NCBI GenBank assembly: GCA_027489355.1
Contig: JAIXZY010000019.1
Location: forward strand, 1-58,706
Length of the DNA stretch: 58,706 nt
Direction: 5' to 3'
DNA from: Paracoccaceae bacterium
Lineage (GTDB): Bacteria; Pseudomonadota; Alphaproteobacteria; Rhodobacterales; Rhodobacteraceae
The notes beneath the pieces were generated by a model. That model did not search any database. It was not told the origin of the DNA and saw only the letters and a list, made by a program, of their open reading frames with translations. Made by a program: the position numbers and the translations under genes. Below are positions 19,931 through 44,002 of the stretch, piece after piece; within the stretch, counting starts at the first letter, position 1; the number at the start of each line of letters is the position of its first letter.

Positions 19931-20049
19931 CAGATTGAGCGCTGACGCGCAAGTCATTCCTCTCGTCGTCGGGGCTTGCGCCCTCCTCCTCGGGCGATGG
20001 GGGCATTCTGCCCCCAAACCCCCTGATGATATTTGCAGAAGGGAAAGCT
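19931..20049 (-). repeat. Modular intergenic repeat, copy 1 (full)
   Basis: Read on the minus strand: module A GCTTTCCCTTCTGCAAATAT, beginning at the metallo-hydrolase stop; module B, a hairpin TGGGGGCA-TTC-TGCCCCCA (plus positions 19998-20016); and module C, GAGGAGGAGGGCG followed by CCCGACGACGAGAGGAA and TCAGCGCTCAAT. The same order occurs at 35884-36002 and 43883-44002. The hairpin sits between two converging genes and could terminate both. Confidence 0.75.
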
Positions 20050-20836
20050 AGCGCGAAACAGGATGGAAGGCGTAGACCGTCCCGTCCCGATTCAGCCGAC
20101 CGATCCCCGGATGCGGCAGGTGGGCACCCGCGACGAGCCAGCCCTCCTCGACAACGCTATGGAAAAGCCGCGCCCGCGTGGTCCGGGCCTGGTCGGGATC
20201 CTCGTCGAACTTCCATGTCACCTGGGGGTGCGCGAACTGGACCGGATGATGCACCAGGTCCCCCCAGATCAGAAGCCGCCCCTCGACGAGGAACGCCATA
20301 TGCCCCGGCGAATGGCCCGGAGCATTCACCGCCACCACCCCGGAGATGGGTCCGTCCCCCTGCTCAAGCGGGATCAGGCGCGGCAGGACCGGGGCCATCC
20401 GCGGCTCGGCCCGGACGGCCATCAGCTCTTCGGTCGCCACGAACACCCGCTCGGCGTTCGGAAAGGCCAGGCCACCCTCCGCATCGATCAGTCCCGAAAG
20501 ATGGTCTACGTGGCTGTGACTCAGCGCCACGATGTCAACCTCCTGCGGCGCCATTCCCGCCTCGGCCAGCGCCTCGGGCAGCCGCCCCAGCCCGTTGTGC
20601 CAGGCATCCCCCGCGCCCGCGTCGATCAACAGGCACCCGGCCTGTCCCCGCACCAGGAAAGCCCGGACCGGCAGCGGCAGGCACCCCTCCACCAGATCGT
20701 CGGGGGCAAGCGCGAAGCCCTCCGGTCCGCGCAGGCAATCCGCCGGCATCGACGTCTCGCCGTCCAGAAGCATCGTGACCGACAGCTCGCCCAGTTCCAC
20801 CGTCAGGCTCAGCGGCGTCTCCCGCACGACCCTCAT
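20048..20836 (-). CDS. MBL-fold metallo-hydrolase
   Basis: A 262-aa metallo-beta-lactamase-fold hydrolase. The zinc motif SHSHVDHLSGL (HxHxDH), the later histidine in NAPGHSPGHMAF and the aspartate in LLIWGDLVHHP are present. The substrate is not evident. The start is the ATG at 20836 with GGGAG upstream, overlapping the nuclease stop by 4 bp (ATGA); a longer frame exists but overlaps the nuclease gene. It is the last gene of a coupled four-gene set. Confidence 0.88.
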   Translation of the reverse strand: MRVVRETPLSLTVELGELSVTMLLDGETSMPADCLRGPEGFALAPDDLVEGCLPLPVRAFLVRGQAGCLLIDAGAGDAWHNGLGRLPEALAEAGMAPQEVDIVALSHSHVDHLSGLIDAEGGLAFPNAERVFVATEELMAVRAEPRMAPVLPRLIPLEQGDGPISGVVAVNAPGHSPGHMAFLVEGRLLIWGDLVHHPVQFAHPQVTWKFDEDPDQARTTRARLFHSVVEEGWLVAGAHLPHPGIGRLNRDGTVYAFHPVSR

Positions 20837-21351
20837 GCGCACCAGCTCCCCCGCAGCCCGCCGCCGTACTGCCGCGCATGGCCATCCCGGATCATCGCCC
20901 GCGCCACATCGACCCCATCCAGCGTCAGCCGCACCAGAAGCCGCCCGTAACGGTCGGTCCCTTGGTGTGTCAGCTCCAGCCGGTCCGCCTTCTGGATCAG
21001 CGCCCGCAGGTGCCACGACGCCCGCTCGGCCGCCAGAAACTCGTCCAGGCACTGCGGCGCGTATTTCTCGGGCGTGTCAAAGCCCAGAAGCCTCGCACTG
21101 ACCATGCCGTCCTCGGGGCAGATCAGCGAGACGGTATCCCCGTCCACCACCCGCAGGATGCGGCACGGACCCTGCTCGCTGCCCACCGTCTTCATAGCCG
21201 CGTTCACCAGGTCCGCCAGCGTCGGCAGCAACACCAGACCGCCCACCCCGACCCCGATCACCGCCTTCAGGTAAAACCGCGGATCGACCAGCCGCCGCAC
21301 GGCCCGCGTCACCGCGCCCGCAGGCCGCGCCGGGCCGAGAAGCCAGCCCAT
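20833..21351 (-). CDS. Thermonuclease (SNase-like) family protein
   Basis: A 172-aa protein with an N-terminal membrane segment (YLKAVIGVGVGGLVLLPTLA). The SNase core follows: RILRVVDGDTVSLICP, ARLLGFDTPEKYAPQC, then TDRYGRLLVRLTLDGVDVARAMIRDG. The usual catalytic Arg and Asp positions appear to be kept (DGDT, GFDTPE, DRYGR). Probably an envelope-anchored nuclease or nuclease-like protein. The ATG at 21351 overlaps the aminotransferase stop (TGATG) and its end overlaps the metallo-hydrolase. Confidence 0.85.
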   Translation of the reverse strand: MGWLLGPARPAGAVTRAVRRLVDPRFYLKAVIGVGVGGLVLLPTLADLVNAAMKTVGSEQGPCRILRVVDGDTVSLICPEDGMVSARLLGFDTPEKYAPQCLDEFLAAERASWHLRALIQKADRLELTHQGTDRYGRLLVRLTLDGVDVARAMIRDGHARQYGGGLRGSWCA

Positions 21352-22583
21352 CAGTCCGCCACGGGGGCCGCCACCGGCTCCAGCGCCTCGGCCCCCGCCG
21401 CCTCGGCCGCTTCCTCGGTCAGGATGCGTCCGATCTGCGCCACATCCTCTTCGGTAAAGGTCAGCGGCAGGCGCATGTCGATCAGCCCGGCCAGCACCCG
21501 GTCGGTCTGCGGCAGAGGCGTGGGGTTGGCATACTGCCAATGCGCATAGCGGCTGGTGAACCCCGCCGGGTCCGCCGCACCGAACCACTTCAGCTCCACC
21601 CCGCGCGCCGCCGCGCCCGCGACGAAGCGGGCGACCCGCGCCGGCTCCCAGCCCGGCAGCAGGAACTGGAAAGACGAGCCCACATAGTCCTCGGCCTGTG
21701 GCCGCGGGATCAGCTTCACCCCCGGCGCCCCCGCAAGGCCCCGCTCCATCCCCTGATAAAGCGCCCGCCACCGCGCGCGCCGGTCGTCCAGAAGCGCGAT
21801 CTGCGGCCGCAGGATCGCCGCCCGCAGGTTGTCCATCCGGCTGGACACGTTCGGGACCTCCAGCCGAAGGCCTTCGAACACCTCCGCAGGCGGCGCCGCC
21901 CGATGGCGCGCGTACAGCATGTAGGACCCGGACAGAAGCACCGCCCGCGCCGCCAGCTCGGGGTCGTCCGTCACCAGGAAACCGCCCTCGCCGCTGTTCA
22001 TGTGCTTGTAGGTCTGCGTCGAATAGCAGCCGATCGCGCCATGCCGACCTGACGGCACGCCCTTCCACTTCGCGCCCATCGTATGCGCGCAATCTTCCAC
22101 GACCCGCAGCCCCAGCCGGTCGCACAGCGCCATCAGCGCCTCCATGTCGCAGACATGGCCCCGCATATGCGACAGAAGCAGCACCCGCGCCCCCGTCGCC
22201 CGGGCCTGCGCCTCCAGATGCGCCAGGTCGATGGTCAGGTCCTCCGTCACTTCGACGAAGACCGGCCGCGCTCCGATAGAGGCGATCGCCCCCGGTACCG
22301 GTGCCAGCGTGAAGGCGTTGGACAGGACCGCCTCTCCCGGCTTCACCTGCAAGGCCCGCAGCGCGCAGGCCATCGCCGCCCCGCCCGAGGCAAGCGCAAG
22401 ACAGTATCTCGCGCCGACATAGGCCGCGAATTCCTCCTCCAGCAGCGCGGTTTCCGCCACTTCGCCCGCCACCGTGTTGTAGCGGTGCAGCCGCCCGTGC
22501 CGCAGCACGGCCATCGCCGCATCGATCCCGGCCTCGGGGATCGGCTCCTGCTGGGTGAAACTCCCCGTGAAGCGTTCGCTCAT
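21351..22583 (-). CDS. DegT/DnrJ/EryC1/StrS-family PLP aminotransferase
   Basis: A 410-aa PLP enzyme of the sugar aminotransferase type. The PLP lysine lies in TQTYKHMNSGEGGFLVTDD, the aspartate in VVEDCAHTMGAKWKG, and the glycine-rich segment is ALASGGAAMACALRAL. Such enzymes transfer an amino group to keto-sugars, but there are no other sugar-nucleotide genes here. The C-terminus is Ala/Glu/Pro-rich. It overlaps the MFS gene by 4 bp upstream and the nuclease downstream. Confidence 0.88.
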   Translation of the reverse strand: MSERFTGSFTQQEPIPEAGIDAAMAVLRHGRLHRYNTVAGEVAETALLEEEFAAYVGARYCLALASGGAAMACALRALQVKPGEAVLSNAFTLAPVPGAIASIGARPVFVEVTEDLTIDLAHLEAQARATGARVLLLSHMRGHVCDMEALMALCDRLGLRVVEDCAHTMGAKWKGVPSGRHGAIGCYSTQTYKHMNSGEGGFLVTDDPELAARAVLLSGSYMLYARHRAAPPAEVFEGLRLEVPNVSSRMDNLRAAILRPQIALLDDRRARWRALYQGMERGLAGAPGVKLIPRPQAEDYVGSSFQFLLPGWEPARVARFVAGAAARGVELKWFGAADPAGFTSRYAHWQYANPTPLPQTDRVLAGLIDMRLPLTFTEEDVAQIGRILTEEAAEAAGAEALEPVAAPVAD

Positions 22584-23839: not shown

Positions 23840-24200
23840 GGGGCGCGACCCTATGGGTCGGGACCGGAACTGTCAAACCGGCGCGGACGCATCCCCTGAC
23901 CGCCAGCCCATGCCTTTCCCTTTCCGAAATATCCCCGCCGGAGGCACGTCCGAGCCGGTTGCGCGCCCTTCGCGCGCGGCCGGCGAGACAAAGGCTTGCG
24001 CCGAAAGGCGCTCAATCTGAAAACCGTCCGTCGGACGAGCGAAGGTGAAAGGCCAAGGCACCCGCCGCTTGCGGGAAGGAAACGGATCGGGCCACGACGG
24101 CCGCAAAGCCGGGGGAACTCAAGACCTTGAGAAATCCCTAACGCCCAAGACCAAGCCATTGATTTCGCTTGAGATACGGCGAATGTCCACCGTGGACGGA
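23840..24200. repeat. Gene-free 361-bp gap holding partial copies of two repeat families
   Basis: Positions 23916-24019 resemble the modular element: CTTTCCC...AAATATCCCCGCCGGAGG (module A variant), a GCGCG-ccctt-CGCGC hairpin, then GGCGAGACAAAGGCTTGCGC and AGGCGCTCAATCTG (module C variant). A near twin lies at 32388-32492. The remainder (24020-24184) shows no ORF. Positions 24131-24170 loosely match the stretch next to phoB (rc CAATGGCTTGG...GCGTTAGGGATTTCTCAAG). Confidence 0.55.
24185..24197 (-). terminator. GTCCACCGTGGAC dyad directly after the phosphatase gene
   Basis: A near-perfect 13-bp dyad three bases beyond the gph stop. The same GTCCACCGTGGAC follows the phoB stop at 44088-44100. 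Placement at two minus-strand gene ends suggests an RNA 3'-end structure or a protein-binding site; there is no U-tract. Confidence 0.5.
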
Positions 24201-26289: not shown

Positions 26290-26291
26290 AA

Positions 26292-28231: not shown

Positions 28232-28768
28232 ATGATGCAGCGCAGAACCCTTCTTCTTGGCCTCGCGGCCCTTCCTCTTGTCGCCTGCGCCACCACCCCC
28301 GCCCCACCGGCCATGCAAGGCCCGCCCATCACCCTGGTCTCTGCCTTCCAGGGCCGCACCACCGGCCGCGGCCATTTCCGCATCTGGCTGACCGGCGACG
28401 AACGGCGCTTCACCGCCCGGCTGAACGGCACCGTCAAAGGTCCCGACGGCGCGCGGACCCTGACCGTGGTCGAGGATTTCGCCTATGACGACGGCCAGAA
28501 GGACCGGCTGACCTGGGTCTTCCGCGAACAGGGTCCCGGCCGCTGGACCGGCAAGCGCGAGGACACGGTGGGCGAGGCGACCGTGGTCGAGGACGCGGGC
28601 CGCATCCGCCTGTCCTACACCGCCGACTTCCGCTCGCCCTCGGGCGTGAACCGGCTGGGGTTCGAGGACATCCTCTACGCCCGCCCCGACGGCGCCATCG
28701 TAAACGACGCCGTGGTGTCGAAAGCCGGGATCGCCGTCGCCTCGGTCCGCTTCCTGATCCGGCGCTGA
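28232..28768 (+). CDS. DUF3833-like lipoprotein
   Basis: A 178-aa protein starting MMQRRTLLLGLAALPLVAC, a twin-Arg-like N-terminus ending in a lipobox (PLVAC), so it is a likely membrane lipoprotein. The body has the DUF3833-type pattern: FQGRTTGRGHFRIW, VVEDFAYDDGQKDRLTWVF, GKREDTVGEATV, and a FRSPSGVNRLGFEDILY tail. Function of the family unknown to me. The next gene starts 53 bp downstream on the same strand. Confidence 0.8.
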   Translation: MMQRRTLLLGLAALPLVACATTPAPPAMQGPPITLVSAFQGRTTGRGHFRIWLTGDERRFTARLNGTVKGPDGARTLTVVEDFAYDDGQKDRLTWVFREQGPGRWTGKREDTVGEATVVEDAGRIRLSYTADFRSPSGVNRLGFEDILYARPDGAIVNDAVVSKAGIAVASVRFLIRR

Positions 28769-28821
28769 CTTGCCCTTGCGCGTCTGCGCTGGCAGGTAGG
28801 GTCGTCGACCAGGAGGCCCCG

Positions 28822-29493
28822 ATGACCCCGCTTGAAGAGTTGCAGTCCCTTGCCGACCCCGCGAAAGCGGAAGGGATGGAGGCCTACCACAAAGTCGCCC
28901 GGCCCTATCTTGGCCTCTCGGTCCCCCAGATCGAGGAGCTGACCGACCGCTGGCGGGCCGAACTCACGCTGGACGACCGCCTGGCGCTGGCCGACTCGCT
29001 TTGGCAGACCAACATCCACGAGGCGCGGATCGCGGCGGCCAAGCTCCTGACCCAGGCGCGCATCCGACCGGACGACGAGGCCTGGAGACTGATCGTCTCC
29101 TGGGTTCCGCAGTTCGACGCCTGGGCGATCGCCGACCATGTCTCGATCGCCGGGCAGAAGCGGCTGGTCGCCGAGCCCTCGCGGCTGGACACGGTCGAGA
29201 CCTGGCTCGCCAGCCCGCACATGTGGACCCGCCGCGCTGCGCTGGTGATGACCCTGCCCTGGACCAAGCAGAATTTCCCGAAGCCCCAGGACCTTGCCAT
29301 CCGCGCCCGCGTGCTGGGCTGGTGCGCGACGCTGGCGCCGGACCGGGACTGGTTCATCCAGAAGGCCATCGCCTGGTGGGTGCGCGACCTGTCGAAACAC
29401 GACCCCGCGGCCGCGCGCGGATTTCTCGACGCGTATGGCGCCGACCTGAAATCCTTCGCCCGAAAGGAAGCGGCGCAATATCTGACAGACTGA
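28822..29493 (+). CDS. DNA alkylation repair protein, AlkD-like
   Basis: A 223-aa HEAT-repeat-type protein: LADSLWQTNIHEARIAAAKLL, then SWVPQFDAWAIADHVS and RRAALVMTLPWTKQ. This fold is typical of AlkD, a DNA glycosylase that removes positively charged alkylated bases such as 7-methylguanine. The length matches AlkD-like members. AGGAGG precedes the ATG. The 169 bp after its stop hold nothing I could identify. Confidence 0.82.
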   Translation: MTPLEELQSLADPAKAEGMEAYHKVARPYLGLSVPQIEELTDRWRAELTLDDRLALADSLWQTNIHEARIAAAKLLTQARIRPDDEAWRLIVSWVPQFDAWAIADHVSIAGQKRLVAEPSRLDTVETWLASPHMWTRRAALVMTLPWTKQNFPKPQDLAIRARVLGWCATLAPDRDWFIQKAIAWWVRDLSKHDPAAARGFLDAYGADLKSFARKEAAQYLTD

Positions 29494-30424: not shown

Positions 30425-30436
30425 CGGAAGCCTCGC

Positions 30437-31122: not shown

Positions 31123-31136
31123 GACCCGCCAAGCCC

Positions 31137-31365
31137 TTCATATTGGCCCAAATATCCCCGCCGGAGGCTCCCCCCTCGCCCCCCGCGCTGCGGCCATGCG
31201 CAAAGCACGCCACCCCATTCCTCTTTGCGCAAACATCCCCGCCGGATGCGTCACAGTCCGAATCCACGCGCCGCGGCAGGACTTTCCCGCACGCCACCCC
31301 ATCCGCCTTCCCATCCCCTCTGCGGAGAAAGGCCGGGGATGGCGGGCTATGACGGAAGCCAGGGA
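31137..31365 (+). repeat. Two partial module-A repeats and a hairpin before the SIS gene
   Basis: CAAATATCCCCGCCGGAGG at 31148-31166 and CAAACATCCCCGCCGGATG at 31230-31248 are variants of the intergenic module A, here as a direct pair 82 bp apart. A hairpin CATCCCC...GGGGATG (about 31313-31340) follows. No ORF is supported in this gap between the pseudogene and the SIS gene. Confidence 0.5.
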
Positions 31366-32373: not shown

Positions 32374-32387
32374 CCCACGCCCTGCCA

Positions 32388-32492
32388 TTCCCTTCGCCAA
32401 ACATCCCCGCCGGAGGCCCCCCGAGCCGGTTAGCCGCGGGCCAGAGGCGAGACAAAAGGCTTGCGCCGCAGGCGCTCGATTTCCTCACCGCC
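32388..32492 (+). repeat. Modular intergenic repeat, variant copy
   Basis: CAAACATCCCCGCCGGAGG, then GAGCCGGTTAGCCGCGGGCC, then GGCGAGACAAAAGGCTTGCG and AGGCGCTCGATT. It is nearly collinear with 23916-24019 and lies directly after the SIS gene stop. Confidence 0.55.
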
Positions 32493-33616: not shown

Positions 33617-34518
33617 TCGCCGGCGGAATAGACCTCGGCGGCACCAAGATCGAGGCGCAGGTCTTCGCTCAGGACTGGAGCCTCACGGCCCGCAATCGCT
33701 GGCCCACGCCCAGGGACTACCCCGCCCTCGTCCAGGCCATGACCGAGGCCATCCGCTGGTGCGAGACCCACGGTCCCGCCCCCATCGGCATCTCCGCCGC
33801 GGGGCTCATCAACCCTGCAACCGGGCTCGCCCTCACCTCGAACCTCTCTGCCACCGGCAAACCCTTCCCCGCCGACATTGCCCAGGCCGCCAACCGAAAG
33901 ATCGCCTGGATCAACGACTGCCGCGCCCTCACCCTCTCCGAAGCCACCCTCGGCGCGGCGAGGGGAGCGGACCCCGCCGTCGGCCTCATCCTCGGCACCG
34001 GCGTCGCCGGCGGCGTCGTCACCGGCGGCAAGCTCCTCCCGTCACCTGCCCAAACGGGGGGCGAGTTCGGCCACTTCCCCCTCGCCGCCCCGCCCATCGC
34101 CGCCCACAACCTGCCCTTCCTGACCTGCGGCTGCGGCCGCCAGGGATGCGTCGAGACCTACCTCTCCGCCCCCGGCCTGTCCCGCATCGCCGCCCACCTG
34201 ACCGGCACCCGGCACAGCCCCGAAACCATCGTCGAGGACCGCGCCACGAACCCGCGGTTCGCCGAAGCCTGGGACATCTGGCTTGACCTTGCGACGGAGT
34301 TTCTCATCACCCTCTGTCTCACCATCGACCCCCAGGTCATCGTGCTGGGCGGCGGCCTCTCCCGTGCCCCCGGCCTGACCGACGACCTCACCTCCCGCCT
34401 CACCCGGGCCACGCTCAAGGGCTTCCCGGTCCCCGCCATCCGCCTCGCCGAAGGCGGCGACGCCTCGGGCGCCCGCGGTGCCGCCCTCCATGCCCTGAAC
34501 GAGGCGCACCATGCCTGA
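33613..34518 (+). CDS. ROK-family sugar kinase (probable N-acetylhexosamine kinase)
   Basis: A 301-aa kinase. The ATP-binding motif is GIDLGGTKIEA at the N-terminus, the catalytic WINDCRALTLSE holds the Asp, and the ROK zinc motif is CGCGRQGCVETYLS after GGEFGHFPL. In the context of nagA it probably phosphorylates GlcNAc or GalNAc brought in unphosphorylated. It overlaps the AgaS-like gene upstream. Confidence 0.88.
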   Translation: MIAGGIDLGGTKIEAQVFAQDWSLTARNRWPTPRDYPALVQAMTEAIRWCETHGPAPIGISAAGLINPATGLALTSNLSATGKPFPADIAQAANRKIAWINDCRALTLSEATLGAARGADPAVGLILGTGVAGGVVTGGKLLPSPAQTGGEFGHFPLAAPPIAAHNLPFLTCGCGRQGCVETYLSAPGLSRIAAHLTGTRHSPETIVEDRATNPRFAEAWDIWLDLATEFLITLCLTIDPQVIVLGGGLSRAPGLTDDLTSRLTRATLKGFPVPAIRLAEGGDASGARGAALHALNEAHHA

Positions 34519-34726
34519 CCCTGTCCCGATCAGGTTCCGACACGAAGTCTCGAAAGCCTCCAGGCGGCGCCCGAATGTCCTCACTGCCCCTCAGCGCCCC
34601 GATCCAGCTCTCGCCGCCAAGATTGCCTCCGCCTGCCGCAAAGACTGTGCCGCGCCCCGCGTCCCGGCCCCGGTCCGGGTACAGAGCGCTCTTCGCCCCC
34701 CAATCTGCACGGGACCCCGGCCATGA
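34511..34726 (+). CDS. Possible small protein (71 aa) between ROK kinase and nagA
   Basis: The ATG at 34511 overlaps the kinase end, and the stop overlaps the nagA start (ATGA), so the frame fits exactly between both genes. The product is Pro/Arg-rich with three cysteines and no recognisable family, and its third-position GC is visibly lower than in the neighbours. It could be a real coupled ORF or noncoding filler. Confidence 0.25.
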   Translation: MPDPVPIRFRHEVSKASRRRPNVLTAPQRPDPALAAKIASACRKDCAAPRVPAPVRVQSALRPPICTGPRP

Positions 34727-35874
34727 CCGCCACACCCGACTTCTGGCTCCTGCCCGACGCCATCTTCGACGGAACCCGCCTCCGCCCCGGCGCGGCCCTG
34801 GGCATCGCGACGGGCGGCAGCCTCGCGCTCATCGACACCCCTCCCCCCGGCGCGCCGATCCGCCGCGTGACCGGGACCCTTGCCCCCGGCTTCCTCGACC
34901 TTCAGGTCAACGGCGGCGGCGACGCGCTCCTCAACAACGACCAGTCGCCGCAGGCGCTGCACCGCATGGCGGCCGCCCACCGCCGCTTCGGCACCGTCGG
35001 CATCCTGCCCACCGTCATCACCGATGCCCCCGAAGTCCTGGCCCGCGCCGTGGATGCGACCCTCGCCGCCTTCGCCGAGCCGCAGCCCGACCGCAGCCTC
35101 CTCGGCCTGCACATCGAGGGCCCGCACCTGTCGATCCCCCGCAGGGGCACCCATGCCGCCGAATACATCCGGCCCTTCGACACCACGACCCTCGGCCATG
35201 TCCAGCGCCTCCGTGCCGCAGGGATCTTCGTCAAGATCACCCTCGCCCCCGAAAGCGCCACGCCCCAGGACGTTGCCCGCCTCGCCGGCCTCGGGGCCGT
35301 CGTCTCCATCGGCCACTCCGACGCCACGGCGGACGAGGCCCGCACCCTCCTCGATGCCGGGGCCACCTGCTTCACCCACCTGTTCAACGCCATGTCCCCG
35401 ATGCTGAGCCGCGCCCCCGGCGTTACCGGCGCCTGCATCAACTCGACGGCCTACGCGGGCATCATCTGCGACGGCATCCATGTCGCCGATGAAATGGTCG
35501 GCCTCGCCATCCGCGCACGTCCCGTCCCCGGACGCATGTTCCTCGTCTCCGACGCGATGTGCACCGTCGGCGGCTCCGACCACCTGCGACTTTACGGCAA
35601 GGACATCTGGCTCAAGGACGGCCGCCTCGTGAACGCCGAAGGCTCGCTCGCCGGGGCGCATGTCACGATGGCCGAGGGCCTGCGCCGCCTGATCACCCTG
35701 GTCGGCACCAGCCCCGAGACAGCCCTCGACATGGCCACCGCCGCCCCCGCCCGCCTGCTGAACCGCCCCGACCTCGCCACGCCCGAGCATCGCGATGCAG
35801 CCGACCTTTTGCTGCTCGACGCCGACTGGCGCGTCATCGCCACGGTGGCCGAGATCCTGGCCCAGCCAGGCTGA
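34723..35874 (+). CDS. nagA: N-acetylglucosamine-6-phosphate deacetylase
   Basis: Removes the acetyl group from GlcNAc-6-P in the cytoplasm. It is 383 aa of the amidohydrolase fold. The metal and active-site segments are FLDLQVNGGGG-type (QVNGGGDALLN), HIEGPHLSIPRRG, SIGHSDATADEA, HLFNAMSPM and the catalytic LVSDAMCTVGG. Its end is followed within 10 bp by module A of the intergenic repeat. Confidence 0.95.
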   Translation: MTATPDFWLLPDAIFDGTRLRPGAALGIATGGSLALIDTPPPGAPIRRVTGTLAPGFLDLQVNGGGDALLNNDQSPQALHRMAAAHRRFGTVGILPTVITDAPEVLARAVDATLAAFAEPQPDRSLLGLHIEGPHLSIPRRGTHAAEYIRPFDTTTLGHVQRLRAAGIFVKITLAPESATPQDVARLAGLGAVVSIGHSDATADEARTLLDAGATCFTHLFNAMSPMLSRAPGVTGACINSTAYAGIICDGIHVADEMVGLAIRARPVPGRMFLVSDAMCTVGGSDHLRLYGKDIWLKDGRLVNAEGSLAGAHVTMAEGLRRLITLVGTSPETALDMATAAPARLLNRPDLATPEHRDAADLLLLDADWRVIATVAEILAQPG

Positions 35875-35883
35875 CCTGCGCAG

Positions 35884-36002
35884 GCTTTCCCTTCTGCAAA
35901 TTTCCTCTGGGGTTTGGGGGGCGAAGCGCCCCCAACGGACCGAGGAGGAGGGCGAAGTCCCGGCGACGAGACAGAAGCCTCGCGCGCCAGCGCTCAATTC
36001 GA
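35884..36002 (+). repeat. Modular intergenic repeat, copy 2 (full)
   Basis: Module A GCTTTCCCTTCTGCAAATTT begins 10 bp after the nagA stop. Module B is the hairpin GGGGGCG-AAG-CGCCCCC (35917-35933). Module C is GAGGAGGAGGGCGAAGTCCC and GGCGACGAGACAGAAGCC ending CAGCGCTCAATTCGATG. Likely the 3' end of the nag transcript. Confidence 0.75.
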
Positions 36003-36024
36003 TGACCGCCCCTCAGCCCGAAGC

Positions 36025-36501
36025 CTACGGCCCGTAGACCGTCACCTGCGGCAGCTCGGTCAGGCTCAGGCCCAGCGCCTGAAACGCCGCCAGAGACAAG
36101 AGCGCCCCGCCGGTTCCCGGGCGCAGTTCCAGCGCAAGCGACTTGCCCGCCGCCGTCACGATCCGGCCCTGCGCCTTTTCCTTGACCAGCGAGGACGACA
36201 GCCAGATCCCCTGCTCGGCCGGCGGACCCAGCGCCACAACCACTTTCCCAAGCTCCCGCTCGCCCCCCGCAGCCGGAGCCGCCAGCGCCGCCGCCTTTTC
36301 CTCGGCCGTGGTCTTGTCTAGCGCCGCCGCACTTACGGCCCGGGTCGTGCCCAACGCGCTCGTCGACACCGCCGGCGCGAATTCCGTCGCCGGTTGCGGC
36401 TCGGCCGGACCGGTCACACCGGACCGCTCCCCGTCCTTCTGGAACAGGGCACAGCCCGAAAGGGCCAGGGCAGCAGCGGCAAGCAGGGCAAGATGTCTCA
36501 T
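36025..36501 (-). CDS. Putative lipoprotein
   Basis: A 158-aa protein. The signal MRHLALLAAAALALSGC ends in a good lipobox (ALSGC). An Ala/Pro/Thr-rich linker follows, then a C-terminal domain (GKVVVALGPPAEQGIWL and ALELRPGTGGALLSL) with no catalytic motif I recognise. Similar Rhodobacterales proteins are, from memory, often misnamed D-galactarate dehydratase; nothing here supports an enzyme. Diverges from moaA with an 85-bp gap. Confidence 0.7.
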   Translation of the reverse strand: MRHLALLAAAALALSGCALFQKDGERSGVTGPAEPQPATEFAPAVSTSALGTTRAVSAAALDKTTAEEKAAALAAPAAGGERELGKVVVALGPPAEQGIWLSSSLVKEKAQGRIVTAAGKSLALELRPGTGGALLSLAAFQALGLSLTELPQVTVYGP

Positions 36502-36586
36502 GGCCCCAGCCTAACCCGCCGCCCGCGACCCCGCAATTGTCGCTCTCGCACTTGTGCGCCCCCCCGCCCGGGCCTACCTTTCCCCC

Positions 36587-37588
36587 ATGACGCCCCTCAT
36601 CGACCCCTTCGCCCGCGCCATCAGCTACCTGCGCGTCTCGGTCACCGACCGCTGCGACTTCCGCTGCACCTATTGCATGTCGGAACACATGACCTTCCTG
36701 CCCAAGGCCGACCTCCTGTCCTTGGAGGAACTCGACCGCCTCTGCTCCACCTTCGTCCGCATGGGCGTGCAGAAACTGCGCATCACCGGCGGCGAGCCGC
36801 TGGTCCGCAAGGGCATCCTCACCTTCTTCGAGGCGATGTCGCGCCACCTTCAGACCGGCGCGTTGAAGGAACTCACCCTCACCACCAACGGCAGCCAGTT
36901 GGCCCGCTTCGCCCAGCCCCTCGCCGATCTCGGCGTCAAACGCATCAACGTCTCGCTCGACACGCTCGACCCGAAGAAGTTCCAGGACATCACCCGCTGG
37001 GGCCGCCTTCCCCAGGTCCTGGACGGGATCCAGGCCGCCAAGGCCGCTGGCCTGCGGGTCAAGATCAACGCCGTTGCCCTCAAGGGCTTCAACGAGGATG
37101 AACTCTTCTCCCTCCTCGCCTGGTGCGCGCAGGAGGACCACGACCTCACCTTCATCGAGGTCATGCCGATGGGCGAGGACATGTCCCCCCTCCGCCTCGA
37201 CCAGTACTGGCCCCTGAAGGACCTCCGCGCCCGCCTTGCCGAACGCTTCACCCTCACCGACCTGGCCGAGCGCAGCGGCGGCCCCGCCCGCTATGTCCGG
37301 ATCGAGGAAACCGGCCAGAAGGTCGGCTTCATCACGCCGCTGACCCACAATTTCTGCGAAAGCTGCAACCGCGTGCGGCTCACCTGCACCGGTGAGCTTT
37401 ACATGTGCCTCGGTCAGGAAGACATGGCCGACCTCCGCGCGCCCCTGCGCGCCAGCCCGGATGATGCGGTCCTGGAACAGGCCATCCGCGCGGCCATCGC
37501 GCGCAAGCCCAAGGGCCACGACTTCGACTACAGCCGCCAGAAGGTCGCGGGCCAGATGACCCGCCACATGAGCCACACCGGCGGCTGA
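36587..37588 (+). CDS. moaA: GTP 3',8-cyclase MoaA
   Basis: Radical SAM enzyme, the first step of molybdenum cofactor synthesis. It is 333 aa. The CxxxCxxC cluster is Cys23/27/30 (CDFRCTYC), [10 protein letters not shown] binds SAM, and the second cluster region is [19 protein letters not shown]. The C-terminal Gly-Gly (SHTGG) is kept. I chose the ATG at 36587 since the conserved [20 protein letters not shown] follows. No other moa gene is present nearby; the modABC locus lies 11 kb away. Confidence 0.95.
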
Positions 37589-37611
37589 CACCTCCCGGAA
37601 AAGCGGCGCGC

Positions 37612-37971
37612 CTACACCAGCGCCTTCTGCTCGGCCACGTGCAGCAGCGCCTCCAGAAGCGCCACCTCCACCACCCGGCCGGTCCCCAGCCCGATCACCT
37701 CGACCTCGTCGCTGCCCCGCGTCTCGCGCAGCGAACAGCGCCAATGGCCGTCCGGCTCTTGCGCCTTTCCGGTCAGCTGGATCGTCCAGCCCGGCAGGCA
37801 GACATCCACGCTGTGCAGAAGCTGGCCGATCACGTCCGCCCCCCCGTTCGGCTCGGGCATCTGCGGAAACACCCGCCGCACCAGCACGGCGGCCTGATCG
37901 AACTGCCCGGGCGTCAGTGCCTCGGCCCCCTGCACCCGTTCCTTCAGGCCGCGGATCTCGCTCTTGCTCAT
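37612..37971 (-). CDS. Unknown protein (119 aa)
   Basis: Soluble-looking, acidic protein starting MSKSEIRGLKERVQGAEALT. The middle part (PGWTIQLTGKAQEPDGHWRCSL) and the C-terminus (GTGRVVEVALLEALLHVAEQ) suggest a small alpha/beta fold. No family recognised. The start at 37971 is chosen because it begins a plausible hydrophilic helix; an upstream extension would run into the ppsA promoter region. It converges on moaA. Confidence 0.6.
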   Translation of the reverse strand: MSKSEIRGLKERVQGAEALTPGQFDQAAVLVRRVFPQMPEPNGGADVIGQLLHSVDVCLPGWTIQLTGKAQEPDGHWRCSLRETRGSDEVEVIGLGTGRVVEVALLEALLHVAEQKALV

Positions 37972-38107
37972 CTGGCGTCTCTCCTGCTGCAATCCTGTTG
38001 AATTAAATCCCTGCCGCCGGGCGCCACCTTGATCCGCATCAAGACCCGCTCCGCGGGCGCGGCGCATCATTCGGCAGGAAGCGATGTCACCCGCAGGGAG
38101 TTCCGCA

Positions 38108-40516
38108 ATGCCGAAGCCATCTGTCAACGTCCTTTGGTTCGAAGACCTTTCCCGGCGCGATGTCGCGCTTGTCGGCGGCAAGAACAGCTCGCTGGGAGAG
38201 ATGGTGCAGCAGCTTGGCAAGAAGGGTATCAAGGTCCCCGGCGGCTTTGCCACGACGGCAGATGCCTACCGCGCCTATCTCGCCGCGAACGATCTGAACG
38301 ACCGCATCGCCGACACCCTCGCACGCTGGCAGGATCACCGGATCACCCTGCACGAGGCCGGAAGCCAGGTCCGCGCGATGATCCTCGACGGCAGCTGGCC
38401 CGCCACGATCGAGGCCGACATCCGCGCCGCCTACCGGCAGCTTTGCCAGCGCGCAGGGACCACCGACCTTCCCGTCGCCGTCCGCTCCTCCGCCACGGCC
38501 GAGGACCTGCCCGACGCCAGCTTCGCCGGCCAGCAGGAAACCTTCCTGAACGTGCGCGGCGAAACGGCGCTTCTCGCCGCCTGCCGCCGCTGCTACGCCT
38601 CGCTCTTCACCGACCGCGCGATCACTTACCGCACGCTGAAGGGCTTCGACCACGCCAGGGTCGCGCTTTCGATCGGCGTGCAGCGCATGGTGCGGTCGGA
38701 TACCGGCGGCTCGGGCGTGATGTTCTCCATCGACACCGAAAGCGGCTTCGACAAGGTCGCGCTCATCACCGCCGCCTGGGGCCTGGGCGAAAACGTCGTG
38801 CAGGGCGCGGTGAACCCCGATGAATACGAAGTCTACAAGCCCTTCCTTGCAAAGAAGTCCCTGTCCCCCATCGTCAAGAAGTCGCTCGGCGCGAAAGAGA
38901 TCAAGATGATCTACGCGGGCGCCGAGGGCGGGACGACGAAGAACGTCCCCACTTCAAGGGCGGAACGGGCAGCCTTCGTCCTCAGCGATCACGAGATCCT
39001 CTCCCTCGCCAGGATGGCCGTGACCATCGAAGACCATTATGGCCAGCCGATGGACATGGAATGGGCGCGCGACGGCGACACCGGCGAGATCTTCATCGTC
39101 CAGGCCCGGCCCGAGACCGTGCAGTCCCGCGCCAGGGCCGGGCTGATCCGGTCCTACACCGTTCAGAAGGCGGGGAAGGCGCTTCTCAAGGGACTCTCTG
39201 TCGGCTCGGCCGTCGCCACCGGCCGCGTCTCGATCCTGGAAAGCGCAAAGGACATCGACCGCTTCGTCGATGGCTCGATCCTTGTCACCTCCACCACCGA
39301 CCCGGACTGGGTCCCGATCATGAAGCGCGCCGCCGCCATCGTCACCGACCACGGCGGCCGCACCAGCCACGCCGCCATCGTCAGCCGCGAGCTTGGCCTG
39401 CCCGCCATCGTGGGCTGCGGGAACGCCACCCATATCCTGCACGACGAACAGGAGGTCACCGTCAACTGCACGGGCGGGGACGAGGGGGTGATCCACGAAG
39501 GTATCGCCGAGTTCACCACCGAGGACCTCCGCCTCGACGACCTGCCAAGGACCAGGACCAAGGTCATGCTCAACATGGCCAACCCGTCCGCCGCCTTCCG
39601 CTGGTGGCGCCTGCCCGCCGATGGCGTGGGCCTGGCGCGGATGGAATTCGTGATCAACAACGCGCTCAAGGTGCACCCGATGGCGCTGGTTCACTTCGAC
39701 AGGCTGAAGGACGAGGAGGCGAAGGCGCAGATCGCCGAGCTGACCCGCGCCTTCCCCGACAAGACCGAGTTCTTCGTCGATGGCCTCGCCCGCGGCCTGT
39801 CGCAGATCGCCGCCGTAGCCTGGCCGAACCCGGTCATCGTCAGGATGAGCGACTTCAAGACCAACGAATACGCCGACCTCCTCGGCGGCCGCGAATTCGA
39901 GCCGCACGAGGAAAACCCGATGATCGGCTTCCGCGGCGCCTCGCGCTATTACTCGCCCCGCTACGAGGCCGGCTTCGCCCTCGAATGCCGCGCGATCCAG
40001 CGCCTGCGCAAGGAGATGGGCTTCGACAATGTCGTCGTGATGATCCCCTTCTGCCGCAGCCCGGCCGAGGCCGACCGCGTCCTCGCCACGATGGCGAAAC
40101 ACGGGTTGAAGCGCGGCACGGACGGCCTCCAGGTCTACGTGATGGGCGAGATCCCCGCCAACGTGATCCTGGCCGAGGATTTCGCCACCCGCTTCGACGG
40201 CTTTTCCATCGGCTCGAACGACCTGACCCAGCTGACCCTCGGCGTCGACCGCGACAGCGGCGATCTCGCCGCGCTCTTCGACGAATCCGACCCCGCGGTC
40301 CTGTGGATGATCGAAAGCCTGATATCCCGCGCGCACAAGGCCGGGGCCAAGGTCGGCCTCTGCGGCCAGGCCCCCTCGAACGACCCGGCCTTCGCCCGGC
40401 TTCTGGTCAAGGCCGGGATCGACTCGATCTCCGTCACTCCGGACAGCTTCATCGCCGTGAAACGCAACGTCGCCGCCGCGGAAGGCGCCGGCAAGGCCGG
40501 CCGACAAAAGTCCTGA
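38108..40516 (+). CDS. ppsA: Phosphoenolpyruvate synthase
   Basis: Converts pyruvate plus ATP into PEP (gluconeogenesis). It is 802 aa, near E. coli PpsA (792). The N-terminal ATP-grasp part has GGKNSSLGEMVQQL and RSSATAEDLPDASFAGQQ. The swivelling phosphohistidine domain has GGRTSHAAIVSRELG with His421, the same number as the E. coli catalytic His. The C-terminal PEP-binding barrel ends with SIGSNDLTQLTLGVDRDS and CGQAPSN. The ATG at 38108 has GGGAG upstream; an ATG at 38084 is less likely. Confidence 0.95.
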   Translation: MPKPSVNVLWFEDLSRRDVALVGGKNSSLGEMVQQLGKKGIKVPGGFATTADAYRAYLAANDLNDRIADTLARWQDHRITLHEAGSQVRAMILDGSWPATIEADIRAAYRQLCQRAGTTDLPVAVRSSATAEDLPDASFAGQQETFLNVRGETALLAACRRCYASLFTDRAITYRTLKGFDHARVALSIGVQRMVRSDTGGSGVMFSIDTESGFDKVALITAAWGLGENVVQGAVNPDEYEVYKPFLAKKSLSPIVKKSLGAKEIKMIYAGAEGGTTKNVPTSRAERAAFVLSDHEILSLARMAVTIEDHYGQPMDMEWARDGDTGEIFIVQARPETVQSRARAGLIRSYTVQKAGKALLKGLSVGSAVATGRVSILESAKDIDRFVDGSILVTSTTDPDWVPIMKRAAAIVTDHGGRTSHAAIVSRELGLPAIVGCGNATHILHDEQEVTVNCTGGDEGVIHEGIAEFTTEDLRLDDLPRTRTKVMLNMANPSAAFRWWRLPADGVGLARMEFVINNALKVHPMALVHFDRLKDEEAKAQIAELTRAFPDKTEFFVDGLARGLSQIAAVAWPNPVIVRMSDFKTNEYADLLGGREFEPHEENPMIGFRGASRYYSPRYEAGFALECRAIQRLRKEMGFDNVVVMIPFCRSPAEADRVLATMAKHGLKRGTDGLQVYVMGEIPANVILAEDFATRFDGFSIGSNDLTQLTLGVDRDSGDLAALFDESDPAVLWMIESLISRAHKAGAKVGLCGQAPSNDPAFARLLVKAGIDSISVTPDSFIAVKRNVAAAEGAGKAGRQKS

Positions 40517-40519
40517 CCG

Positions 40520-40574
40520 GCTTTCCCTTCTGCAAATATCCCACGGGAGGTCCGGAGGGTGTGAAACCCTCCGG
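40520..40574 (+). terminator. Module A plus strong hairpin after ppsA
   Basis: CTTTCCCTTCTGCAAATATC (40521-40540) begins 4 bp after the ppsA stop, followed by hairpin CCGGAGGGT-gtgaa-ACCCTCCGG (40552-40574). Module C is absent. Probably the ppsA 3' end. Confidence 0.65.
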
Positions 40575-40614
40575 GTCCAGCCACCTGCACGCCCCTCAGC
40601 CCCGGCAGCGCGGG

Positions 40615-40638
40615 CGTAGGGTGGGCGATCCGCCCACC
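40615..40638. repeat. Second copy of the GTAGGGTGGGC palindrome family
   Basis: CGTAGGGTGGGC (40615-40626) is identical to an arm of the 30-bp palindrome near nuoJ. It forms GGTGGGCG-atc-CGCCCACC (40620-40638), 5 bp beyond the hemP stop. Confidence 0.6.
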
Positions 40639-40643
40639 ATCCT

Positions 40644-40802
40644 TCACTTGGTCAGGATCAGCTTGCCCGCCCGCGTGATACGCAACGAATAGACCTGCCC
40701 GTCCAGCACGATCCGCGCCAGGCTCCCGCCCTCGGTCAGCACGCGCGCGTCATGCACCGGCGTCGCATCCGCCGTCAGCCACGGCTCAACATGAGCGTTC
40801 AC
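40644..40802 (-). CDS. hemP: Hemin uptake protein HemP-like
   Basis: A 52-aa protein ending VYSLRITRAGKLILTK, the diagnostic C-terminus of HemP (LRxTRxGKLILTK). The start is the GTG at 40802, overlapping the stop of the preceding 40-aa ORF (GTGA). HemP proteins are linked to heme/iron uptake and usually sit near hmu or other iron genes; none lie here. Confidence 0.85.
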   Translation of the reverse strand: MNAHVEPWLTADATPVHDARVLTEGGSLARIVLDGQVYSLRITRAGKLILTK

Positions 40803-40921
40803 CACTCCACCTCCAGCCGGTCGATCATCGCTTCCAGAAGCGGCAGCGGAAACATCCCGGACAGGATTCCGGGCCACAGGTCGACAAGCGCAGCCCGAGC
40901 GGCCGCATCGCGTTGAGGCAT
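40799..40921 (-). CDS. Possible 40-aa ORF upstream of hemP
   Basis: MPQRDAAARAALVDLWPGIL and on to LEAMIDRLEVEW. AGGTGGAG lies about 7 nt before the ATG at 40921, and the stop overlaps the hemP GTG by 4 bases, so hemP translation is probably coupled to it. Amphipathic helical appearance; no family recognised. It is too short for automated calls. Confidence 0.55.
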   Translation of the reverse strand: MPQRDAAARAALVDLWPGILSGMFPLPLLEAMIDRLEVEW

Positions 40922-40985
40922 GGTGAACTCCACCTGATCTGAAGGACACCGGGCGTGCCCCAAGGGGCTGGCTGGGCTTGGCTAT

Positions 40986-41014
40986 ATCCTTACTAAAACA
41001 GTAAACCATGTCAA
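40986..41014 (-). promoter_or_regulatory. hemP promoter with inverted repeat
   Basis: TTGACA (minus strand, 41014-41009), 17-bp spacer, then AAGGAT (40991-40986). Inside the spacer, TTACT-aaaac-AGTAA (40990-41004) is a perfect dyad in an AT-rich island. Placement between -35 and -10 fits a repressor, perhaps an iron-responsive one given hemP (inference). Confidence 0.55.
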
Positions 41015-41064
41015 CGCATATTCCGCTGGCCCCCCGCGCGCCTTTGGCTATCCTGCCGCCGACC

Positions 41065-42087
41065 ATGACCCAGGACCCCGCCGGAAGTCTCCTCTCCCTC
41101 CCCCCGCCGCAGGTTCCTCTGCAGGCGCTGGGGGCCCTCGTCGCCGCCCACTGGGGGATGACCGGCACGCTTCACCCGCTCACCTCGGAGCGCGACCAGA
41201 ACCACCGGCTCGACACGACTCAGGGCAGCTTCATCCTGAAACTCGCCAACCCCGCCGAGCCCGCCGCCCTCACCGACTTCCAGACGCAGGCGCTCCTCTA
41301 CACGGCCCGGAACGCTCCCGACCTTCCCACCCCGCGCGTCCTCCCCATGCGGGACGGGCGCCCCCTCCTGCCCACCCCGGACGGTGCGCTCCGCCTCCTT
41401 ACCTGGCTGCCCGGCACGCCCCTGGCGCACCTGCCCCGCACCCCCGGCCTCGCCGCGGCCATCGGCACCGCCCTCGGCCGACTGGACGCAACCCTCGCGG
41501 ACTTCCGCCACCCCGCCGCCGACCACCACCTCCTCTGGGACATCCGCAACGCCCGCGACCTTGTCCCCCTCATCCCTTCCGTCCCCACGGACCTCCGCCC
41601 CCGCATCGCTGCTTTCCTCGACCGTTTCCAGACCGAAGTCGCCCCCGCCCTCGCCCTGCTTCCCCGGCAGGTCATCCACGGCGACTTCAACCCGCACAAC
41701 CTGCTCGCCGACCCGGCGCGACCCGAGACCCTGACCGGCATCCTCGACTTCGGCGACATGACCCTGTCGCACCGCATCTGCGACCTCGCCGTCGCCGCCT
41801 CCTACCTGATCGAGCCGGCCGACCCGCCCAGCCTCCTTGTCCCGCTCACGCGCGCCTACCACCGCGCCAACCCGCTGACCGCACAGGAAATCGCCCTCCT
41901 GCCCGACCTCATCACCGCCCGCCTGGCGACGACGCTGACGATCACCGCCTGGCGCGCTGCCCGTTACCCCGAGAACGCGCCCTACATCCTGCGCAACGCC
42001 CCCACCTCCCGCGCCGGCCTTGCGGCGATGACCGATCCCAAGGCCCTCATCACCACCCTCCGCGAAGCCTGCGAAAGCCCGACATGA
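41065..42087 (+). CDS. APH-fold kinase, probable hydroxylysine-type kinase
   Basis: A 340-aa phosphotransferase. The catalytic motif is VIHGDFNPHNLLAD with ILDFGDMTLSHRICDLAVA; the N-lobe Lys is in GSFILKLANP. The adjacent coupled gene (4-bp overlap) is a class III PLP enzyme of the AGXT2L type. That combination matches hydroxylysine kinase and phospho-lyase in animals, or ethanolamine-phosphate systems. The start is the ATG at 41065; one at 41008 would overlap the hemP promoter. Confidence 0.82.
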   Translation: MTQDPAGSLLSLPPPQVPLQALGALVAAHWGMTGTLHPLTSERDQNHRLDTTQGSFILKLANPAEPAALTDFQTQALLYTARNAPDLPTPRVLPMRDGRPLLPTPDGALRLLTWLPGTPLAHLPRTPGLAAAIGTALGRLDATLADFRHPAADHHLLWDIRNARDLVPLIPSVPTDLRPRIAAFLDRFQTEVAPALALLPRQVIHGDFNPHNLLADPARPETLTGILDFGDMTLSHRICDLAVAASYLIEPADPPSLLVPLTRAYHRANPLTAQEIALLPDLITARLATTLTITAWRAARYPENAPYILRNAPTSRAGLAAMTDPKALITTLREACESPT

Positions 42088-43397
42088 CCCGTCAGACCAC
42101 CATGCTGAATGCCTACACCCCCGGCGCCGGACACCTCTCTCCCGCGGACGAGGCCCTGGCCAACCGCCGCGCCAGGGCCCTGGGTCCCGCCTACCGGCTT
42201 TTCTACGAAACTCCCGTCCACCTTGTGCGCGGCGAGGGCGTCCACCTCTACGCCCCCGACGGCACGGCCTATCTCGACTGCTACAACAACGTGGCCTCCG
42301 TCGGCCATTGCCACCCCCGCGTCGTGGAAGCCCTGTCGAAACAAGCCGCCACCCTCGCCACCCACACCCGCTACCTGCACGACGGCATCCTGGACTATGC
42401 CGAACGCCTCCTCGCGCTCTTCCCCCCCGACCTCTCCCACGTGATGTTCACCTGCACAGGGTCCGAGGCGAACGACCTCGCCCTGCGCATCGCCCGCGCG
42501 GCCACCGGCGGCACGGGCGTCATCGTCACCGACAACGCCTACCACGGCGTCACCCTTGCCACCGCCGAAATGTCGATGTCCATCGGCCCCGCCGTCGCCC
42601 CCGGCCCCACCGTTTTCCCGATCCCCGCCCCATCCGCGCAGAATTACCCGCAGGGCATCGCCGCAGGCTTCGCGGCAGCCGTCACCGAGGCCTGCGACCG
42701 CATGGCCGAACAAGGCATCAACCCCGCCCTCCTCATCGTCGACACGATCTTCTCCTCCGACGGCGTCTACCCCGACCCCACCGGCTTCCTCGCTCCCGCC
42801 GCCGCGGCGATCCGCGCGAAGGGAGGCCTCTTCCTCGCCGACGAAGTGCAACCCGGTTTCGGCCGCACTGGCTCCCACTTCTGGGGCTTCCAGCGCCACA
42901 GCCTGATCCCTGACATGGTCAGCATGGGCAAACCGATGGGCAACGGCTACCCCCTCGCGGGCCTCGTCCTTAAACCCGACACCATCGCCGAGTTCGGCAC
43001 CAAGGCCCGCTACTTCAACACTTTCGGCGGCAATGCCGTCGCCGCTGCCGTCGGCCTCGCCGTCCTTGACGTGATCCGCGACGAAGCCCTGCAACAGAAC
43101 GCTGCCACTGCGGGTGCTGCGTTCATGCAAGGTCTGAAGTCTCTCGCCCAACGCCATGACTCCCTTGGTGAAACCCGTGCGGCGGGCCTCTTCATCGGCC
43201 AGACCATCCTGACCGATGGCAAGCCCGACCCCGCCCGCACCGCGCGGCTGGTGAACGCTCTGCGCGAGCATCGCATCCTGATCAGCTCCACCGGCCCCAA
43301 GGGCGACAGCCTGAAGATCCGCCCGCCCCTTCCCTTCAGCACGGGCAATGTCGATCAGGTCCTCACCACCCTCGACCGACTCCTGCCGACCCTCTAG
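42084..43397 (+). CDS. Class III PLP enzyme, aminotransferase or phospho-lyase
   Basis: A 437-aa class III fold. YNNVASVGHCHPRVVEALSK, FTCTGSEANDLALRIARA and ADEVQPGFGRTGSHFWGF are typical. The PLP lysine is in MVSMGKPMGNGYPLAG, and THTRYLHDGILDYAERL is close to AGXT2L1/2. Members of that group remove phosphate and ammonia from phosphoethanolamine or phosphohydroxylysine and do not transaminate. The gene ends on the CTAG shared with the convergent gene. Confidence 0.85.
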   Translation: MTRQTTMLNAYTPGAGHLSPADEALANRRARALGPAYRLFYETPVHLVRGEGVHLYAPDGTAYLDCYNNVASVGHCHPRVVEALSKQAATLATHTRYLHDGILDYAERLLALFPPDLSHVMFTCTGSEANDLALRIARAATGGTGVIVTDNAYHGVTLATAEMSMSIGPAVAPGPTVFPIPAPSAQNYPQGIAAGFAAAVTEACDRMAEQGINPALLIVDTIFSSDGVYPDPTGFLAPAAAAIRAKGGLFLADEVQPGFGRTGSHFWGFQRHSLIPDMVSMGKPMGNGYPLAGLVLKPDTIAEFGTKARYFNTFGGNAVAAAVGLAVLDVIRDEALQQNAATAGAAFMQGLKSLAQRHDSLGETRAAGLFIGQTILTDGKPDPARTARLVNALREHRILISSTGPKGDSLKIRPPLPFSTGNVDQVLTTLDRLLPTL

Positions 43398-43798
43398 GCC
43401 CCAGGCAGCAGCCCGCGTCCGGCATGGACGTGATAGGCCTTGGTGACGATCTGCCAGCGGCCCGAAGCATCGGGCCGATCCTTCACCATGACCAGGTAAT
43501 CGGTGAAATCCGTCCCGAAACAGGTGTCCGTCAGCTTCGCCACCGCCACCGTCCCCGTCACCTCGATCGACAGAAGCTCCGCCACTATGGGCGCCCCTTC
43601 AGCTTCCGTCTCCTCCGCCTTCAGCCAGGCAATGAACTCCTCCAGCGGGAAGAACTCGTAGGTCTCGCCGAAATGCCCGACCTGCAAGGCACCGGGATGA
43701 AACGCCCGCCGCAGCTTCGCCTCATCACCCCAGCACATCCCCTCCAGGTAGTCCACCACCACCGCCCGCACCGCATCATGCTCTGCACCCCAGGCCAT
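43394..43798 (-). CDS. NTF2-fold (SnoaL/lumazine-binding-like) protein
   Basis: A 134-aa protein starting MAWGAEHDAVRAVVVDYLEG. The pattern ALRRAFHPGALQVGHFG-type helix plus AVAKLTDTCFGTDFTDYLVMVKD and a final YHVHAGRG fits the nuclear-transport-factor-2 fold, near the Lumazine_bd_2 group. Function unknown. GGGAGGT precedes the ATG at 43798. Its TAG stop shares CTAG (43394-43397) with the convergent aminotransferase. Confidence 0.78.
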   Translation of the reverse strand: MAWGAEHDAVRAVVVDYLEGMCWGDEAKLRRAFHPGALQVGHFGETYEFFPLEEFIAWLKAEETEAEGAPIVAELLSIEVTGTVAVAKLTDTCFGTDFTDYLVMVKDRPDASGRWQIVTKAYHVHAGRGLLPGA

Positions 43799-43882
43799 CC
43801 GTACCTCCCTGTCGACCCCGGTCCAGACTGCACCGCCCCGGCCGGATCGCAAAGCCTTACCCGACCGCCTCCGGTCCGACGC

Positions 43883-44002
43883 CCTTTCATACTGGTGCAA
43901 ATATCCCGGGGAACTCGAGGGGCAGCGCCCCTCGTCAGCCGAGGAGGAGGGCGAAGTCCCGACGACGAGAGGAACGCCTCGCGCGTCAGCGCTCAATTCG
44001 AA
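43883..44002 (+). repeat. Modular intergenic repeat, copy 3 (full)
   Basis: Module A CTTTCATACTGGTGCAAATA, module B hairpin CGAGGGGC-AGC-GCCCCTCG (43916-43934), module C GAGGAGGAGGGCGAAGTCCC, then GACGACGAGAGGAACGCCTC and GTCAGCGCTCAATTCG. It lies in a 304-bp gap between two minus-strand genes; nothing else is apparent in 43799-43882. Confidence 0.75.

Follow-up and report, generated by a model that had tools for sequence, protein, structure and literature searches.

The closest parallel to the intergenic element described here comes from the uptake sequences of Neisseria and the Pasteurellaceae (DNA uptake sequence, DUS, and uptake signal sequence, USS), which pair into terminators (PMC1852404). 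DUS and USS resemble our element in that they are short repeats concentrated downstream of genes, with species dialects around a common core, in that inverted pairs form terminator hairpins, and in that few lie in head-to-head (divergent) gaps. The element was found in a 58,706-nucleotide stretch of DNA from a Paracoccaceae bacterium (GCA_027489355.1, contig JAIXZY010000019.1, positions 1-58,706), referred to throughout as the window. A preliminary description of this stretch had named three full and five partial copies of an ordered set of leader, G/C hairpin and tail, and had proposed that they represented a mobile, RNA-forming repeat and not plain terminators.

Other described systems share some of these properties. 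The repetitive extragenic palindromic sequences (REP) and bacterial interspersed mosaic elements (BIME) that are associated with REP-associated tyrosine transposases (RAYT) are, like the element, small, high-copy, extragenic palindromic modules that stand after genes and form inverted doubles. REP has a short fixed tag, as the tag is presented in PMC3733652, whereas the element has a variable long leader. Bidirectional Rho-independent terminators likewise have GC hairpins that follow stop codons, flanks rich in A/U on either strand and doubles of canonical form; single copies of the element, however, mostly have no T-run beside the stem, and a conserved leader stands outside their hairpin. Two RNA motifs of the same order, the Rhodobacterales, HRC-8-4 and uORFC-8-2, each belong to one particular gene setting (cco operons, cysS) according to PMC8632094, and HRC-8-4 resembles a terminator stem; unlike these single-gene motifs, the element follows many unrelated genes. 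Rfam gave no match in the window at gathering score. We found no description of the element in the open-licence literature, and subscription papers may describe it; the articles on REP tags (PMC3733652) and on stem-loop families (PMC2267715) did not contain the Rhodobacterales genus names that we looked for.

Results

The element is a mosaic and not a fixed repeat, and its leader, hairpin and tail vary separately. Based on its position after genes, its avoidance of divergent gaps and the conservation of its sites, weighed against null results for T-runs and orientation, we hold a bidirectional gene-3'-end or terminator module of one bacterial family to be the likeliest explanation, although we do so tentatively.

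Module A is a pyrimidine-rich leader of ~20-23 bases whose 3' end is AAATAYYC. The own genome of the bacterium has four main leader subtypes, CTTGCTCTTTTnnn-AAATACTC, CTTTCATACTGGnnC-AAATATCC, CTTTCYCTTCnnC-AAATATCC and CATTTTCTGTCnn-AAATATCC. Leader and core co-vary there, the TTGC leader being found with AAATACTC in 32/32 copies and the other leaders with AAATATCC in 46/47, and the 2-3 base spacer between leader block and core is under much weaker constraint than both flanking blocks. Module B is a short hairpin, either N3-GGA-N3 with a GGA triloop (B1) or a G-run/C-run hairpin (B2). The optional module C adds two more hairpins in the form CGAG-hairpin-CGAGACAAAAGGC-GCGC hairpin-TC(A)ATTT, with a first part that reads GAGGAGGAG[GGCGAAGCCC]CGACGACGAG in C2 and is a longer hairpin in C1. 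Many combinations of leader type, B1 or B2, and presence of C were seen in the own genome. The classification leaves out 11 of 90 AAATAYYC sites that had no recognised leader, although the one at 31150 is a real element, and 18 of 56 candidate C modules were dropped as chance matches.

Searches of the own genome and of the family bore out the earlier suggestion of a modular element and brought to light many additional copies; the copy at 43884 as query returned 42 own-genome matches at E ≤ 10. The exact B1 core was present in 137 of 198 family genomes, at 0 to 163 copies per genome, with a reversed-pattern control of 0 throughout. Among 240 genomes drawn from the class it was found in two, both of the own family, and in none of the 237 from other families. 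Some family genomes seem to be without B1 even under a looser pattern. A scan of named genomes identified at least 118 stretches; among the 80 listed, 77 had titles of Rhodobacterales or of genera placed there, and the remaining three were metagenome bins labelled otherwise or more broadly, the assignment of the family to Rhodobacterales being judged from record titles. A 34-base query of leader plus B1 matched 37 plasmid records, 33 of them from genera placed by name in Rhodobacterales, and the best place in those 33 lay under no annotated gene or in a record without annotation (two records). No phage record covered ≥80% of a 34-base query.

The position of the element relative to genes was studied in an own-genome sample of 1,658,706 bp (the window and 80 stretches), with genes called by a home-made codon model and corrected by hand at window 29660-30505 and 30660-31121. 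On contig C43 the called coverage was low (0.653), and therefore some of the apparently intergenic sequence there may be uncalled genes. All 80 leader-plus-core copies lay outside called genes, in which the element differs from DUS and USS, with their many copies in coding sequence. The B1 core was found 37 times outside called genes and never inside, and the bare 8-base core 91 times outside and 31 times inside. Of the 79 classified copies, all flanked by genes on the two sides, 57 stood in tandem gaps (33 oriented with the genes and 24 against them), 20 in convergent gaps and 2 in divergent gaps, so that 77 stood in gaps holding a gene 3' end. The numbers expected by gap length were 41.6 tandem, 13.5 convergent and 24.0 divergent, with p 3e-10 for the divergent deficit.

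The comparison of individual sites around the window covered six relatives from within the genus, whose proteins are ~60-98% identical to those of the window genes. At five of seven window sites the element was present, in the window orientation, in every relative that kept the flanking gene(s), amounting to 25/25 site-relative cases (four between 23839 and 24201, five to the left of 31339, four between 32373 and 32558, six between 35874 and 36025, and six between 43397 and 44103). The 23914 site was occupied in the genomes designated G201, G204 and G206, and in G191 with a one-base core change; the 31135 site in G201, G204, G191, G206 and G205; the 32386 site in G201, G204, G191 and G206; and the 43884 site in G201, G204, G207, G191, G206 and G205. 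Two further relatives agreed at the 35885 site (one, L199, with a changed core), giving 8/8 readable relatives occupied. By eye, the rest of the gap around the kept elements was largely changed between relatives. No strict leader-plus-core copy was found in the syntenic stretches of the relatives beyond the shared sites, and other 8-base matches there had no leader.

Site coincidence was slight across genera, with 150 neighbour matches, many of them paralogous, among 19,215 possible pairs; 66 of the matches were in the same orientation, 52 were inverted and 32 were odd. Two Leisingera plasmids had one element in common, after parB. The second Leisingera element did not represent a clean empty site because the other plasmid has an extra gene there. 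In the two Leisingera caerulea plasmids (L272-L277), the element 15 bases past the parB stop was followed, in both, by a perfect canonical terminator hairpin.

Compensatory change in the hairpin, on which the preliminary description had laid weight, was strong in C1 and visible in B1, but it was thin in the three full copies themselves, as 1 of 18 predicted pairs in an eight-copy alignment had changed on both sides. Seven gap-free C1 rows (4 of the 11 'plain' rows were excluded for length or fit) had 98.8% of cells paired and two-sided changes at 7/12 pairs; none of 500 shuffles matched the pairing or covariation score, and slid versions dropped to 26-54% paired. When all 11 plain rows were used, pairing was 0.869 versus 0.582 shuffled (0/2000), although in two of the rows the fit was poor, with 2 and 4 of 9 pairs formed. 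Of 23 C1 hairpins from the own genome and relatives, 12 had a 3x2 internal loop of fixed form (GGT/GA) that the remaining 11 did not have, and pairing in this GGT/GA class (12 rows, 4 distinct) was not clearly over shuffles (166/2000). An anchor-based count of the second hairpin of module C covered 22 rows, of which 17 had GCGC/GCGC, two had GCGG/CCGC, one had GTGC/GCAC and two were mis-anchored; one further row had no tail. The own sample held 43 B1 GGA triloops with three paired bases per side, of which 36 had GCC/GGC arms and seven had others, including CGC/GCG (3) and CCC/GGG (1); such arm swaps were likewise found in G208 and G203. A covariance model built from the mixed C1 alignment contained no more than 3 base pairs, owing to misplacement of the variable loops by MAFFT, and was set aside. 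In the predicted folds of the first and second full copies the pyrimidine leader is paired to the GAGGAGGAGGG tract, and the third copy, which has another leader, folds otherwise.

The leader subtype turned over by species at one and the same site. At 35874 the leader is CTTTCCCTTC in the own genome, CTTGCCCATGTCCC in G191, TTTGCGCATTTCCC in G205 and CTTTCATCTTTG in G201, G204, G206 and G207; of these four, all but G204 carry a CTTTCATACTGG leader in addition. CTTTC leaders read CTTTCATCTGTC in 24/27 cases in G191 versus 0/68 in G211. TTGC leaders in G191 read TTGCCCATGT in 37/57 cases; among the matches listed for G203 none did so, and those listed for G203 and G208 read TTGCTCTTTT or close variants. 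Several dialects stand side by side within one genome. Inverted doubles of one dialect were found head to head (in G203 nine pairs with a spacing of exactly 6 bases; four in the own sample), and tail-to-tail doubles with matching leaders at 5 of 117 named loci. The dialect leader behaves like a recognition site. We also observed a recurrent composite, a CTTTCATCTTTG leader with B1 and then, after ~24-40 bases, a CTTTCATACTGG leader, always in that order in the cases seen (own C7:82012 and C7:212246; G201, G206 and G207 at site 35874).

Head-to-head doubles have the form AAAAGAGCAAG-N-CTTGCTCTTTT and tail-to-tail doubles the form AAATATCCCCGCCGGAGGC-N-GCCTCCGGCGGGGATATTT, and to judge from their sequence both would be ordinary bidirectional terminators. 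Across module B and the leader, the opposite strand had a hairpin with a T-rich tract after it in 31/79 copies versus 10.1 in mononucleotide shuffles, and the forward strand had a terminator-like signal in 13/79 copies versus 6.0. Long-stem terminators followed B1 in 11/124 named copies versus 1.2. The earlier view that the copies are not plain terminators is fair for most of them by a simple T-run criterion, but appears not to extend to the doubles.

All eight sites named in the preliminary description proved real on reading the sequence (Table 1). The three full copies had the ordered set of leader, G/C hairpin, GAGGAGGAGGGCG and CAGCGCTCAAT, each of the latter two being exact at 3 places in the window, and the patterns for leader, core and tail matched the window 3, 2 and 3 times, against means of 0, 0 and 0.04 in 50 first-order Markov versions of it. 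The five sites regarded as partial were all present, but those at 23914 and 32386 turned out to be complete elements whose third module is another one, C1.

Table 1. Copies of the element and their modules in the window.
Position	Strand	Feature	Basis or setting
19931..20047	-	full element: CTTTCCCTTC-type leader, B2 hairpin, C2 module GAGGAGGAGGGCG...CAGCGCTCAAT	sequence
23914..24019	+	full element: B1 hairpin, C1 module	flanked on either side by a minus-strand gene
31135..31168	+	CTTCATATTGG-type leader, AAATATCC, B1	~13 bases past a stop codon
31217..31249	+	degenerate leader and B1-like unit	sequence
32386..32483	+	full element, degenerate core AAACATCC, B1 and C1	sequence
35885..36005	+	full element: CTTTCCCTTC-type leader, B2, C2	sequence
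35909..35933	+	B2 hairpin of the 35885 copy	sequence
35940..35998	+	C2 module of the 35885 copy	87% identity over 70 nt to 43939-44008
40521..40574	+	CTTTCCCTTC leader, AAATATCC and B2 hairpin (CCGGAGGG/CCCTCCGG), without C module	sequence
43884..44005	+	full element: CTTTCATACTGG-type leader, B2, C2	sequence

As had been reported for several copies, the element often starts near a stop codon. Five sites lay at most ~13 bases after one (0, 10, 4, ~13 and 12), but the 43884 copy has no close same-strand stop. The leader of the 19931 copy comes directly after the TAG of the minus-strand gene 20048-20827, which encodes a metallo-beta-lactamase-fold protein, and the 32386 copy stands 12 bases past the stop of the plus-strand SIS-domain gene 31339-32373. 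Ten bases after a TGA, the 35885 copy occupies the gap between the convergent genes 34723-35874 (plus strand, amidohydrolase) and 36025-36501 (minus strand); the 40521 copy is four bases past the TGA of a gene for a PEP-utilising enzyme.

Two other palindromes were seen in these gaps. A GTAGGGTGGGCGATCGCCCACCCTAC-like palindrome, at window 40614-40640 and in other own-genome gaps, is a second over-represented intergenic palindrome that adjoins the element in some gaps, and its 9-mers have 24-27 intergenic occurrences in 859 kb of the own genome. A TGTCCACCGTGGACA palindrome lies at window 44085-44105 and ~24180-24200, a few bases from the stop of a minus-strand gene; these palindromes have a common upstream TTGATTTC stretch and are also present in several relatives.

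Discussion

The element resembles a signal for the ends of genes more than a repeat that jumps freely, and we infer that it has a terminator or 3'-end function and that some factor reads its leader. As a bidirectional 3'-end module, it would end or insulate transcription both ways. The GC hairpins come from modules B and C; the AAATAYYC core forms an A-tract, with a U-rich tract (GRRUAUUU) on the complementary strand; and the last part of module C is a hairpin with UC-AUUU after it. Two units placed head to head or tail to tail may then make up a complete bidirectional terminator, of which single copies would hold parts.

A number of results weigh against this explanation. A simple T-run terminator scan of 28500-46000 picked up no copy of the element, whose U-tracts are weak, and RNA folding of the window copies was not uniformly better than that of shuffles (z -3.1 to +1.1). 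Tandem copies showed no orientation preference (25 versus 19, p 0.45; 33 versus 24 in the classified set), and the terminator-like signals were independent of gene orientation, as the reverse signal was present in 11/33 same-oriented versus 19/44 opposite or convergent copies (p 0.48) and the forward signal in 9/53 versus 4/24 (p 1.0). In addition, a terminator needs no sequence-specific leader dialect, and two window sites, 19931 and 40521, vary within the genus.

The mosaic of modules in nearly all combinations, together with the head-to-head and tail-to-tail doubles, would also suit a slowly mobile or copied repeat, similar to REP/BIME or to a miniature inverted-repeat transposable element, that would be driven by a putative enzyme and survive mainly in gene-3' gaps since insertion elsewhere is harmful, with dialects representing successive families. 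The wide range of copy number within the family and the slight site coincidence between genera agree with this, as do the two variable sites: 19931 is empty in G201 and has a degenerate leader and core in G204, and the 40521 gap, both flanks of which are kept in G204 and G205, lacks a strict element in G204, and in G205 it has been rebuilt and likewise gave no strict match. Because these sites vary among relatives, gain or loss of the element does happen. However, the other five window sites were kept with their orientation in all 25 cases, there were no strict copies outside shared sites in the syntenic stretches, and terminal inverted repeats and target-site duplications were not seen by eye, no systematic search having been made. 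The transposase link that had been suggested was not found either: the REP-associated Y1 transposase (PF01797), the only transposase family searched, was present in 0/20 element-bearing genomes and in 2/20 B1-free family genomes. RAYT was rejected as a driver on this basis, and both the lack of PF01797 and the keeping of most sites between species set the element apart from REP/BIME with RAYT. Mobility as originally stated is therefore not supported, and we regard a mobile repeat as rather unlikely.

It is more doubtful still that the element is a stabiliser in the 3' untranslated region, whose hairpins would block 3' exonucleases or form an RNase processing site without transcription being ended. 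Its location right after stop codons, hairpins with two-sided changes and the many copies without a U-tract would fit such a role, but tandem copies against the upstream gene are about as many as those with it, and the leader dialects are left unaccounted for. The dialects, along with the two conserved blocks around a weakly constrained spacer, the co-variation of leader and core, and one-dialect doubles at a fixed 6-base spacing, favour a DNA-level recognition site, in which block 1, 2-3 free bases and AAATAYYC would be bound by a protein with species-drifting specificity (as an uptake mark, or a recombination or nucleoid site). We judge this improbable given the RNA-like or single-strand-like compensation in B1 and C1 and the coexistence of several dialects per genome, PF01797 being the sole candidate protein sought. 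A further, speculative and on balance unlikely, proposal is that the leader is a recognition code read at gene ends by one or more fast-evolving trans-acting factors of the Rhodobacterales, with several specificities per genome. The result might be sequence-addressed termination, or a self-mark of the DUS kind that is incorporated in terminators (e.g., to label DNA for transformation or for gene-transfer agents), and the copies of a genome would change dialect in concert.

If the bidirectional gene-3'-end module is the correct explanation, a large and ecologically important bacterial family would use a modular element as a mark at many of its gene ends, and terminator prediction and 3'-end annotation in genomes of the family would be improved. 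The change of dialect per genome at mostly conserved sites would then be a clean natural experiment, either in concerted evolution or in a binding factor that co-evolves with hundreds of targets.

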